Under the pieces are notes generated by a model. The model worked only from the letters and a program-made list of their open reading frames with translations, was not told the origin of the DNA and ran no database searches. From positions 2,232,001 through 2,296,000 of the forward strand of contig NSGV01000001.1 of assembly GCA_002300355.1 (NCBI GenBank): a stretch of 64,000 bases of DNA, read 5' to 3'. This DNA is from Streptomyces sp. TLI_235 (GTDB lineage: Bacteria > Actinomycetota > Actinomycetes > Streptomycetales > Streptomycetaceae). Both the position numbers and the translations under genes were made by a program. Positions 1-61,776 of this stretch are shown in pieces (positions within the stretch are counted from its first letter, which is position 1; the number at the start of each line of letters is the position of its first letter).

Positions 1-1874
1 GGCCGGGCCAGCAGGGCGCGGGCGGTGTCGCCGAGCAGGGCCAGCGCGGCGGGCCGCTCGGCAGGGCCGAGGTAACGGGCGACGACGTGGTCGGCCGCGA
101 ACCTCAGCACCGCCTCGACGATCGTCACCGCCGTCTCGGCGGGCAGGTGGTCGGCGACCAGCCGCAGGTAGCCGGCGGCCGGCAGCTCGGCGGAGCGCAC
201 CAGGTCGCGGGCGTGCTCCCAGAGCACCGCGCGGGCCTGCTCGTCCTCGATCCGGGAGAGCGAGGCGCCGACGGTCGCGGCGGAGTGCTCGTCGAGGCGG
301 ACCAGCGCCCAGGTGAGGTCGCCGTCGTTGGGCAGCAGCAGGGCCGGGCGGGGCGCGCCGGCGAGCTCCGGCAGCACGGTGCGGCCGCCGGGGGCGACGT
401 CCGCGTCGATCCGCTCGCGCAGCACCACCGCCTCGCCGGCCCGGTCGTACACGCCGACCCGGATCCGGTGCGGGCGGGTGCCGTCGTTGACCAGCACCAC
501 GGAGGCGAGGGTGTCGCCCTCGGCCTCGACCTCCAGGCGCAGGGTGTCGACACCGCTGGTGCGCAGCCAGGCCTCGGCCCAGCCGGCCACGTCCCGGTCG
601 GTGGCGGCGCCGAGCGCGGCCAGGAAGTCGGCGAGGTCGGCGTTGCCCCGGCGGTGCTTGGCGAAGTAGGCGTTGAGGCCGGCGAAGAACGCCTCGTCGC
701 CGAGCCAGTGCACCAGCTGGCGCAGCGCGGAGGCGCCCTTAGCGTAGGAGATGCCGTCGAAGTTGACCAGCGCCTCGGCGACCGAGCCCATCGCGGTGGC
801 CGCGACCGGGTGGGTGGAGCCGCGCAGGTCCGCGTCGTAGCCCCAGCCCTTGCGCTTGACCGCGAAGGAGGTCCAGGCGCCGGTGAAGCGGGTGGAGTCG
901 GCGGCCGTCCGGTAGCCGAGCATCTCCGCGAAGGACTCGTTCAGCCACAGGTCGTCCCACCAGGCCATGGTGACCAGGTCGCCGAACCACATGTGCGCCA
1001 TCTCGTGGCAGACCACCATGGCCCGCATCTCGCGCTGCGGCTCGGTCGGCGCGGAGCGGAACAGCATCTCGTCGCGGAAGACCACGCAGCCCGGGTTCTC
1101 CATGGCGCCCCAGTTGAACTCGGGGACGAAAGCCTGGTCGTACTTCCCGAAGGGGTAGCGCTCGTCGAAGAGGCCGTGCAGCCGGTCGAAGGAGGCCCGG
1201 GTGACCTCGAAGAGCTCCTCGGCCTCCCGTTCCAGCTCGGCGGCGAGCGAGCGGCGGGCGTACAGGCCGAGCGGGATTCCGTCGTGCTCGGTGCGGACCG
1301 CGTGCAGCGGGCCGCCGACCACGGTGACCAGGTAGGTGGAGATCGGGCCGACCGGGGCGACCTGCCAGCGGCCGTCGGGCAGCCGCACGGCGGTGCCGTT
1401 GCCGATCACCGTCCAGTCCTCGGGGGCGGTCACGGTGAAGGTGAACGGCGCCTTGAGGTCGGGCTGGTCGAAGCAGGCGAACATCCGCGGTGCCAGGTCG
1501 GGGCCGCAGCTGGCGAAGACGTATCCGGCACCGTCGGCCGGGTCGGTGAAGCGGTGCAGGCCCTCGCAGGTGCGCGAGTAGTGCATGTCGGCCTCGACCA
1601 GCAGCTCGTTCTCGGCGGCCAGCCCGGGCAGCGCGAGGCGGCCGCCGTCGAGGGCGGCGGGGTCGAGCGGCCGCCCGTTGAGCTCGGCGCGCAGCAGCGC
1701 GGCAGGGGCGAGGTCGACGAAGGAGCCGGCCCCGGGCTCGGCGCAGCCGAACCGGATCACGGTGGTGCTGCGGAACAGGCTGTCGCCGCGGGTGAGGTCG
1801 AGGTCGACGGAGTACGACCGCACGTCGAGCAGCTGGGCACGGAAGGCGGCCTCGGAACGTTGCAGAGCTGGCAT
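1..1874 (-). CDS. pepN: aminopeptidase N, M1 family (partial, C-terminus off left edge)
   Basis: Zinc metallo-aminopeptidase that removes N-terminal residues from peptides, expected to be cytoplasmic. About 624 codons are present; streptomycete PepN is about 850-860 residues, so roughly the last quarter is missing. The protein reads MPALQRSEAAFRAQLLDV from an ATG at 1874. The substrate-binding GAMEN motif lies at about 1091-1106, and the zinc motif HEMAHMWFGD at about 982-1011, in the usual order. A second upstream ATG at 1882 is out of frame. The gene is divergent from the TerD gene at 2028. Seen: both signature motifs. Known: M1 family mechanism. Identity is near certain. Confidence 0.95.
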   Translation of the reverse strand, partial: MPALQRSEAAFRAQLLDVRSYSVDLDLTRGDSLFRSTTVIRFGCAEPGAGSFVDLAPAALLRAELNGRPLDPAALDGGRLALPGLAAENELLVEADMHYSRTCEGLHRFTDPADGAGYVFASCGPDLAPRMFACFDQPDLKAPFTFTVTAPEDWTVIGNGTAVRLPDGRWQVAPVGPISTYLVTVVGGPLHAVRTEHDGIPLGLYARRSLAAELEREAEELFEVTRASFDRLHGLFDERYPFGKYDQAFVPEFNWGAMENPGCVVFRDEMLFRSAPTEPQREMRAMVVCHEMAHMWFGDLVTMAWWDDLWLNESFAEMLGYRTAADSTRFTGAWTSFAVKRKGWGYDADLRGSTHPVAATAMGSVAEALVNFDGISYAKGASALRQLVHWLGDEAFFAGLNAYFAKHRRGNADLADFLAALGAATDRDVAGWAEAWLRTSGVDTLRLEVEAEGDTLASVVLVNDGTRPHRIRVGVYDRAGEAVVLRERIDADVAPGGRTVLPELAGAPRPALLLPNDGDLTWALVRLDEHSAATVGASLSRIEDEQARAVLWEHARDLVRSAELPAAGYLRLVADHLPAETAVTIVEAVLRFAADHVVARYLGPAERPAALALLGDTARALLAR

Positions 1875-59933: not shown

Positions 59934-60923
59934 TCAGACGTCCGCGCCGTCGCGCTCGTCCGCCGCTTCCAGCGCCGCGCGCTCCTGGCGGCGCGAGGCG
60001 ATCAGGCTGGTGACGGTGGTGACGGCGAGGACCACCACGATGAAGCCCAGCGAGGCGGCGATGCTGATCTCCGGCACGTGCACGCCGCTCTCGTGCAGCG
60101 CGTGCAGCACGAGCTTCACGCCGATGAAGCCGAGGATCACCGACAGGCCGTAGGCGAGGTGGACCAGCTTCTTCAGCAGGCCGCCGATCAGGAAGTACAG
60201 CTGGCGCAGACCCATCAGCGCGAACGCGTTCGCGGTGAAGACGATGTACGGGTCCTGGGTCAGGCCGAAGATCGCCGGGATGGAGTCCAGCGCGAACAGC
60301 ACGTCGGTGGTGCCGATCGCCAGCATGACGATCAGCATCGGCGTCATCAGCCGGCGGCCGTTCTCCACGATGAAGAGCTTGGTGCCGTGGTACTTGTCGG
60401 TCGCCGGGAAGCGCCGCTCGATCGACTTGAGCAGGCGGTTCTCCTCGAACTCCTCCTCCTCGTCGGAGCGGGCGTCCTGGATGAGCTTCCAGGCCGTCCA
60501 GATGAGGAAGGCGCCGAAGATGTAGAACACCCACGAGAAGGTGGAGACCAGGGCCGCGCCGCCGGCGATGAAGACCGCCCGCAGCACCAGCGCGATGATC
60601 ACGCCGAACATCAGCACGCGCTGCTGGTAGATCCGCGGCACGGCGAACTTGCCCATGATCAGGATGAAGACGAAGAGGTTGTCGACGCTCAGCGACTTCT
60701 CGGTGATGTAGCCGGCGAAGAACTCGCTCGCCGGCTGCGATCCGTACTGCTTCCACAGGAAGGCGCCGAAGCCGATCGCCAGGATGATCCAGACGGTCGT
60801 CCAGATCCCGGCCTCCTTGATCGAGACCTCGTGCGGTTTGCGGCCGCCGATGAAGAAGTCGGCCATGATCAGGGCGATCAGCACCCCGATCGTGCCGATC
60901 CACAGGCTCAGGGAAACGTCCAC
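59934..60923 (-). CDS. TerC family integral membrane protein
   Basis: 329 residues, about nine membrane helices. Family motifs: FFAGYITEKSLSVDNLFVFI with the conserved Glu and Asp for metal transport, and IGTTDVLFALDSIPAIFG with a second Asp pair. The cytoplasmic loop SDEEEEFEENRLL is acidic. Known: TerC/Alx-family proteins export Mn2+ and are often controlled by the yybP-ykoY riboswitch, which appears to be present here. GTG 60923 with GGAGGAG five bases upstream. Convergent with the CYTH gene. Confidence 0.93.
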   Translation of the reverse strand: MDVSLSLWIGTIGVLIALIMADFFIGGRKPHEVSIKEAGIWTTVWIILAIGFGAFLWKQYGSQPASEFFAGYITEKSLSVDNLFVFILIMGKFAVPRIYQQRVLMFGVIIALVLRAVFIAGGAALVSTFSWVFYIFGAFLIWTAWKLIQDARSDEEEEFEENRLLKSIERRFPATDKYHGTKLFIVENGRRLMTPMLIVMLAIGTTDVLFALDSIPAIFGLTQDPYIVFTANAFALMGLRQLYFLIGGLLKKLVHLAYGLSVILGFIGVKLVLHALHESGVHVPEISIAASLGFIVVVLAVTTVTSLIASRRQERAALEAADERDGADV

Positions 60924-60960
60924 GTCTGCTCCTCCGGCAGGTAGGCGAACAGGCATCGTC

Positions 60961-61077
60961 ACTGCCGGAGGTCTCCTCCACCCTGCGGCTCACCGAAGGA
61001 GCACGCGGGCCGGCACCCCGGGACACCCGATGGGCGGGTGTCCGTGATGACGGGGCTGCCGCTGGGGAGTACTCCCC
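60961..61077 (-). ncRNA. yybP-ykoY (Mn2+) riboswitch-like leader of terC
   Basis: In the 5' leader of terC, read on the minus strand: CGGAGGGGAGTAC opens the element, CCCGTCATCACGG follows, and GGAGACCTCCGG closes it. The outer CGGAGG/CCTCCG bases pair as stem P1, flanking GGGGAGTA and GAGACC, the conserved parts I associate with the yybP-ykoY class. Internal GGGTGTCC/GGACACCC forms another stem. Known: this riboswitch senses Mn2+ and precedes terC-type genes. Confidence 0.65.
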
Positions 61078-61091
61078 TCCGCTCTACGCCG

Positions 61092-61121
61092 AGGCTAACA
61101 GAATCCCCAAGACAAGGTAAA
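61092..61121 (-). promoter_or_regulatory. candidate terC promoter upstream of the riboswitch
   Basis: On the minus strand TTTACC (61121-61116) and TAGCCT (61097-61092) are 18 bases apart. Transcription would start near 61085, just before the aptamer, giving a leader of about 160 bases. Confidence 0.5.
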
Positions 61122-61131
61122 GAAGGTAAAG
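61114..61131. repeat. tandem 9-bp direct repeat overlapping the terC -35
   Basis: AAGGTAAAG occurs twice in immediate succession (61114-61122, 61123-61131). A 9-base phase places both copies on nearly the same DNA face, and one copy contains the candidate -35. Confidence 0.7.
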
Positions 61132-61194
61132 AAACGTCAGGTGCCGGGGCGACCGGGGGTGCTCAACGGGTGCGCCTGGGGTGCGCCACCGGGC

Positions 61195-61776
61195 TCAGAG
61201 GAAGGGCTCGATCGCCGGCAGCATGTCCTGGAAGGTCCTGGCCCGGGCCGGTGCGCCGATCGCCTGCATCGCCCAGCCGCCCTCCGGCTCGCGGTAGACC
61301 TTGGCCATGATCTGCCCGGTGTGCCGGCCGCCGGCCGCCAGCTCGTAGCGGGCCAGTTCCTGGCCGGTGGACTCGTCGACCAGCCGGCAGTGCGCGTCCT
61401 GCACCTCGGCGAAGCTCTGGCCGGTGTACGAGCTGACGGTGAACACGATCTGGGTGATGTGCGCCGGCACCCGCAGCAGGTCGACCAGGATCACCTCGTC
61501 GTCGCCGCCGCGGCCGGCCCCGCCGGTCACGTTGTCCCCGGTGTGCTGCACCGAGCCGTCATTGCTCGCCAGGTGCTGGAAGAACACCACGTCGGAGGGG
61601 GTGCGCTCGGCGTACAGCAGGGCCGAGGCGTCCAGGTCGACCTGGCGGCTGCGGCTGCCGAACAGCCCCTTGCGGACGGCGGCCCGCCAGCCGAGGCCCA
61701 TCCGCACGACCGTCAGCGACTCCCCCGAGCTCTTCTGCAGGCTGACGCTCTGCCCCTTGGCCAGATTCACCGACAC
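61195..61776 (-). CDS. TerD family protein, single domain
   Basis: 193 residues. Canonical start MSVNLAKGQSVSLQKSSGES, then VVRMGLGWRA, VDLDASALLYAERTPSDVVF, GGDDEVILVDLLRVPAHIT and the C-terminal LARYELAAGGRHTGQIMAKV. The acidic residues that bind calcium are present. GTG 61776 with AGGGAAG upstream. It lies upstream of terC on the same strand, with the terC promoter and riboswitch between, so the two are probably separately transcribed. Confidence 0.93.
   Translation of the reverse strand: MSVNLAKGQSVSLQKSSGESLTVVRMGLGWRAAVRKGLFGSRSRQVDLDASALLYAERTPSDVVFFQHLASNDGSVQHTGDNVTGGAGRGGDDEVILVDLLRVPAHITQIVFTVSSYTGQSFAEVQDAHCRLVDESTGQELARYELAAGGRHTGQIMAKVYREPEGGWAMQAIGAPARARTFQDMLPAIEPFL

Follow-up and report, generated by a model that had tools for sequence, protein, structure and literature searches.

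We identified a conserved, structured leader element upstream of the terC gene (minus strand, 61081-60966) in the window, the whole 64-kb stretch of DNA analyzed here. The element is very probably a compact member of the Mn2+ (yybP-ykoY) riboswitch class that lacks the P2 helix and is wired to terC translation, which would be on at high Mn2+. An original prediction from the DNA alone had already read this leader as yybP-ykoY-like; that reading gains support from the identity of its loops with those of solved structures, from class-wide double-sided covariation, from a near-exclusive association with terC and GDT1 genes, and from four loci recognized in common by the Rfam model RF00080 and by a model built from terC leaders (R1). 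What the analysis adds is the compact junction, the triple use of the closing arm, a second copy in the genome, and the blindness of RF00080 to the actinobacterial branch. Placing an actinobacterial terC under this riboswitch class is not itself new: the annotation of C. glutamicum cg2157 terC, in the part of PMC3890552 that treats it, gives a yybP-ykoY leader (49.1 bits, earlier Rfam) with an observed transcript, and, as annotated, it is like the window's locus in having a leader of the class ahead of an actinobacterial terC. The titles, abstract openings and passages of the literature that we consulted contain neither a P2-less form nor a Streptomyces terC Mn2+ riboswitch.

The terC leader and its recognition by covariance models

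The terC coding sequence occupies positions 59934-60923 on the minus strand, as do all window features described here, with a GTG start at 60923 preceded by GGAGG 7 nt ahead, and its product matches the TerC family (PF03741, E 1.3e-53). All of the motifs named in the original prediction are present: the P1 arms CGGAGG (61081-61076) and CCTCCG (60971-60966), GGGGAGTA (61077-61070), CCCGTCATCACGG (around 61051-61044), and GGAGACC, with its end at 60970. The closing arm, which had been placed about 40 bases from the start codon, ends 42 nt ahead of the GTG. The sequence likewise contains a candidate for the promoter proposed just ahead of the element. This candidate promoter (61092-61120) consists of a -35-like TTACCT (61120-61115), a 17-nt spacer and a -10-like TAGCCT (61097-61092), and from these hexamers transcription would begin at about 61085, 3-4 nt ahead of P1. 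Among 71 distinct Streptomycetaceae leaders, 68 carry TANNNT 4-22 nt ahead of P1, versus 17.5 expected from shuffles. A gene encoding a TerD-domain protein (PF02342, 61195-61785) adjoins the leader on its upstream side. We rejected the idea that TerD is a constant upstream neighbor of terC, which it precedes in 16 of 80 named loci.

The covariance check that had been proposed for this element, with RF00080, was negative. The model gave no match at its gathering threshold over the whole window, none over positions 60500-61400 even at E<=10, none at the element when run on the element's own genome (two sub-threshold matches lie elsewhere, with E values of 0.96 and 2.96), and none at E<=10 in 17 relatives. 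The original prediction was to be abandoned if a clearly negative covariance score were joined by an absence of metal-dependent structural change, and the first half of this pair is what RF00080 returned for the window. Yet even the E. coli mntP switch (L113, 662-758), which is known from experiment, gets only 41.6 bits from RF00080 (Rfam 15), less than the model's own gathering cut-off of 45, and the model finds almost nothing in actinobacteria. Thus, the negative result in the window reflects the model more than the element.

We also relied on models built from terC leaders. R1 was made from 50 aligned leaders (alignment A1) and its training set included relatives of the window. R2 was made from other actinobacterial families (alignment A2, comprising 100 of the 119 loci fetched from outside the window's family, with L292 and L295-L312 left out) and contains no member of that family. 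With R2, the element was the top match in the window, spanning 60966-61083 and scoring 79.9 bits (E 6e-16); the next match scored 14.1 bits. R2 was reached through R1; the gene association and the overlap with RF00080 are independent of R1 training. Neither model matched E. coli mntP at E<=10. In a sample of 197 genomes from the class, RF00080 matched 4, none above its cut-off, and R1 matched 110 at E<=0.001. All four RF00080 loci were also R1 matches (31.2-49.5 bits, E<=1e-4), and RF00080 was the best Rfam family at each; a separate RNase P gene lies near one of them (L192). Because R1 recovers all four, both models see the same class. Within the order, R1 matched 111 of 119 genomes, including all 15 from two families absent from training. 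If the reading is correct, a metal-sensing RNA would be standard in the main antibiotic producers, where the standard library reports almost none (4 versus 110 of 197 genomes).

The genes downstream of the matches are consistent with this assignment. R1 produced 127 matches outside the window's family, and downstream genes were examined for 119 of these: 102 are terC, nine are of the GDT1 type and eight are other genes. The two query proteins tested belong to PF03741 (the terC product) and PF01169 (GDT1), both of which are metal-export families.

A probable three-way junction with a conserved putative Mn2+ site

The element is closed by the switch helix P1.1, whose 5' arm CGGAGG (61076-61081) pairs with 60966-60971; all six pairs form in 71/71 distinct leaders, and double-sided changes occur, including a GC to AU double change in L101, L102 and L108. 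Both conserved strands of L1, GGGGAGUA and AGACC, are found in the window element. In the 5' strand (61070-61077), GGAGTA is invariant in 100/100 rows of A2. P1.2 follows, its 5' strand CUCC (61066-61069) pairing with 60976-60979, with double-sided changes at three of four pairs and 93.9% of cells paired. The P3 arm (61011-61061) comprises P3.1, the internal loop L3 and the P3.2 hairpin; every P3.1 pair and 6/7 P3.2 pairs covary on both sides. P4 (60980-61010) is a hairpin of variable length in which all five modeled pairs show double-sided changes and 96.3% of cells are paired. The stretch that completes the junction (60970-60979) joins the P1.2 3' strand GGAG (60979-60976) to the L1 3' strand GAGACC (60975-60970), and its AGAC is invariant in A2.

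RNAalifold on the 50 leaders of A1 called 28 pairs, 16 of them with double-sided changes. It also proposed a local GGA/UCC hairpin inside L1, which we rejected: 27 of 98 rows cannot form its A-U pair, and P1.2 is preferred because its pairing is kept through UA/CG/GC and CG/UA swaps. With P1.2 added, 92.5% of cells in A2 are paired versus 72.7% in shuffled alignments, 25 of 29 pairs have double-sided changes, and 530 cells are double-changed, where shuffles gave 174 and slid controls 56-83; these counts lean upward because the A2 alignment was fitted to the structure of the model.

In 100/100 A2 rows, only 3-8 nt separate P1.2 from P3, which leaves no room for P2, and the junction would thus be three-way rather than four-way. 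A pattern search measured 17-22 nt between L1 and L3 for 96 of the 100 class rows; the four outlying values (9 or 12) probably arose where the pattern matched by chance at an earlier position. Thus, as read from the aligned sequences, the common actinobacterial form is a three-way junction of P1.1, L1, P1.2, P3 with L3, and P4. In passages of two papers, the aptamer of this class is described as having four helices, P1-P4 (PMC9495176), and as a four-way junction (PMC6754395). A2 has P1.1/P1.2, P3 and P4 and no P2, and we therefore file the element as a variant of the class rather than as a canonical member. P2 may already be optional in some earlier class consensus. Two known leaders illustrate the difference. 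The E. coli mntP leader shares the L1 core and a Mn2+-export target but has a P2 hairpin (a 29-nt segment between L1 and L3 that folds to 6 bp) and an L3 of GUCAACAUACU. The leader at L190 (genome G215, 1501-1608, minus strand), which is matched by both RF00080 and R1, keeps a P2-like hairpin, with 40 nt between L1 and L3 and an L3 of GACAUGCU; it is a possible intermediate between the four-way and three-way forms.

The loops carry the main likeness to the solved aptamers of L. lactis and X. oryzae, which extends from L1 (GGGGAGUA/GAGACC) and the sensing adenosine of L3 to P1.1, P3, P4 and the metal-export targets. The structural passages of PMC6754395 describe L1 as sarcin-ricin-like with an extruded A10, quote GAGACC in its 3' half in X. 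oryzae, and place Mn2+ at N7 of an adenosine that never varies: A41 in the L. lactis loop (UCA41AU43UC), A48 in that of X. oryzae (ACA48U49ACU52). Set against these passages, the GAGACC of the window is identical to that of X. oryzae, the equivalent of A10 would be 61073, and adenosine 61048 corresponds to A41 and A48. This adenosine lies in the L3 octamer GUCAUCAC (61044-61051), where UCA is placed as in the solved loops described there, four residues before P3.2. It is invariant in 50/50 leaders of A1 and in 100/100 rows from outside the family (A2), and in all 100 of the latter it follows a C, as the CA of GUCA or GACA. The actinobacterial form differs from the solved aptamers and from RF00080 in lacking P2, in being GC-rich, in having an L3 that before terC is mostly GUCANYAC, and in being missed by RF00080; the residues after the sensing adenosine differ from both solved structures as quoted in those passages. 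If the reading is correct, the element raises the question of whether Mn2+ recognition can do without the paperclip four-way junction.

The closing arm as an anti-Shine-Dalgarno sequence

The P1.1 3' arm CCUCCG (60971-60966) continues as CCUCCGGCAG (60962-60971), which is complementary to the Shine-Dalgarno arm CUGCCGGAGG (60940-60931), so that the same strand can pair with either 61076-61081 or 60931-60940. Pairing of the closing arm with P1 and with the Shine-Dalgarno sequence is mutually exclusive, as expected of a translational platform. All 71 distinct Streptomycetaceae leaders have a completely paired P1 and, for the anti-Shine-Dalgarno arm, a downstream partner of 8-11 bp, versus a shuffled mean of 5.9. 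L101, L102 and L108 have all three strands changed together (CGAAGG / CCTTCGG / GCCGAAGG), which may represent one ancestral event rather than three. Among 89 terC loci of the class, 66 keep an anti-Shine-Dalgarno complement of at least 7 bp over a Shine-Dalgarno-like sequence (shuffled mean longest complement, 6.4), with many different sets of three strands, and 23 do not. The original prediction had left control at either translation or early elongation; the translational half stands and can be made more specific, since the strand that closes P1 doubles as the anti-Shine-Dalgarno.

Nearest-neighbor energies calculated without metal were -89.3 for the OFF pairing versus -81.3 for the ON pairing. 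The OFF fold is thus favored by 8 kcal/mol, as a default-off switch needs. When the ON fold was forced, the Shine-Dalgarno sequence was only partly unpaired (probabilities of 0.02-0.57), and the unconstrained minimum free energy fold exactly matched neither drawn state. In the mechanism that we propose, the P1 3' arm (CCUCCGGCAG) would pair with the Shine-Dalgarno arm (CUGCCGGAGG) at low Mn2+ and terC would be off. At high Mn2+, the ion would bridge L1 and L3, dock the two legs and stabilize P1.1, which would then capture the anti-Shine-Dalgarno, free the ribosome site and allow the TerC exporter to be made. Since P2 is missing, this scheme assumes that the docking geometry survives without it. 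We infer Mn2+ binding, docking without P2, the direction of switching and Mn2+ export by the window's TerC. An arm that serves as both P1 and anti-Shine-Dalgarno would offer a clean, mutation-ready system for the study of translational Mn2+ control in Streptomyces.

The second aptamer copy in the window's genome lies ahead of a GDT1 gene (PF01169) at G000:C4:175624-175740 (L144, 1025-1141) and scores 48.4 bits with R1 and 52.8 bits with R2. Here, and in the GDT1 copies at L145-L148, the P1 3' arm CCUUCGGCC contributes to a strong competing stem that lies a good distance ahead of the start codon, an arrangement more like an attenuator than like Shine-Dalgarno blocking. In L3, these copies carry GACAUACU or a close variant, which resembles the X. 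oryzae loop.

The GDT1 arrangement bears on whether the main control point lies early in transcription elongation or at Rho-dependent termination, with only a secondary role for the Shine-Dalgarno sequence. A strong competing stem so distant from the start codon would suit such control, and passages of PMC6754395 and PMC11087558 report that Mn2+ riboswitches also act transcriptionally. At terC, however, the competing partner is the Shine-Dalgarno sequence itself and the two change together, which makes a mainly transcriptional mode quite unlikely there. It is very improbable that the leader is a protein-bound structure or a plain attenuator rather than a metal-binding aptamer. An anti-Shine-Dalgarno hairpin could by itself control translation, and metal binding is here inferred rather than computed; against this, the unpaired nucleotides of L1 and L3 vary no more than those of the stems do and coincide with the Mn2+ site in the solved aptamers.

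The cue could be broader than we propose, with the same RNA sensing other divalent metals (for example Ca2+, Cd2+, Co2+ or Ni2+) or pH, besides or instead of Mn2+. E. coli alx, a TerC gene, is pH-responsive. A passage of the review PMC9495176 ties a Streptococcus yybP-ykoY switch to Ca2+/Mn2+ efflux, and the divergence of L3 after the sensing adenosine from both quoted structures points the same way. The invariance of the Mn2+-discriminating adenosine and the identity of the targets, terC and GDT1, nonetheless make a broader cue unlikely. As for a chance resemblance in GC-rich DNA, which the RF00080 result could be taken to suggest, its probability is negligible, as the covariation, class-wide recurrence and gene association already refute it.

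Aptamer-free terC leaders and additional targets

The Streptomycetaceae scan covered the 80 named terC loci and 30 loci from 101 genomes of the family. The core pattern is present in 77 of these 110 loci, a total that includes the window's own locus and some duplicates, and absent in 33. The 80 named loci divide into 48 with the aptamer, 10 with the platform only (L042, L044, L046, L054, L061, L065, L034, L023, L029 and L043) and 22 with neither. An automated search for the longest anti-Shine-Dalgarno complement in aptamer-free leaders gave mixed results, and the platform-only leaders were therefore called by eye from the shared platform sequence. In L042, L044, L046, L054, L061 and L065, the GGAGG and CCTCCGG arms are kept and a short insert replaces the aptamer. 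Predicted folds contain a P1-like hairpin in L042, L054 and L061 and anti-Shine-Dalgarno/Shine-Dalgarno pairing in L044, L046, L065 and L034. On the TerC tree, platform-only leaders fall among aptamer-bearing ones, with well-supported branches forcing at least five label changes, and of the 16 aptamer-free genomes searched with R1, only one had an aptamer copy at another site.

We somewhat favor the view that the P2-less three-way form is the standard actinobacterial terC/GDT1 switch, invisible to Rfam 15, and that several Streptomyces lineages lost the aptamer, so that what remains there, the switch helix with its anti-Shine-Dalgarno platform, is a simple hairpin fossilized in a single state. 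If so, the four-way junction would be unneeded for Mn2+ sensing, and these leaders would form a natural series running from the complete switch to its frozen relic.

Some R1 matches lie ahead of other genes. L255 and L312 precede genes for PGPGW-family membrane proteins (PF09656), and L205, L221 and L238 precede genes for a single protein family with a shared N-terminus, in which the L205 and L221 proteins have no Pfam match; the genes at these five loci are possible new members of a Mn2+ regulon. Single matches ahead of an ion channel gene (L270, PF00520) and a gene for a GreA/GreB-type protein (L285, PF01272) may be distant or unrelated. At L191, on the minus strand, the aptamer lies ahead of a gene whose product resembles, by eye, a sodium/calcium exchanger.
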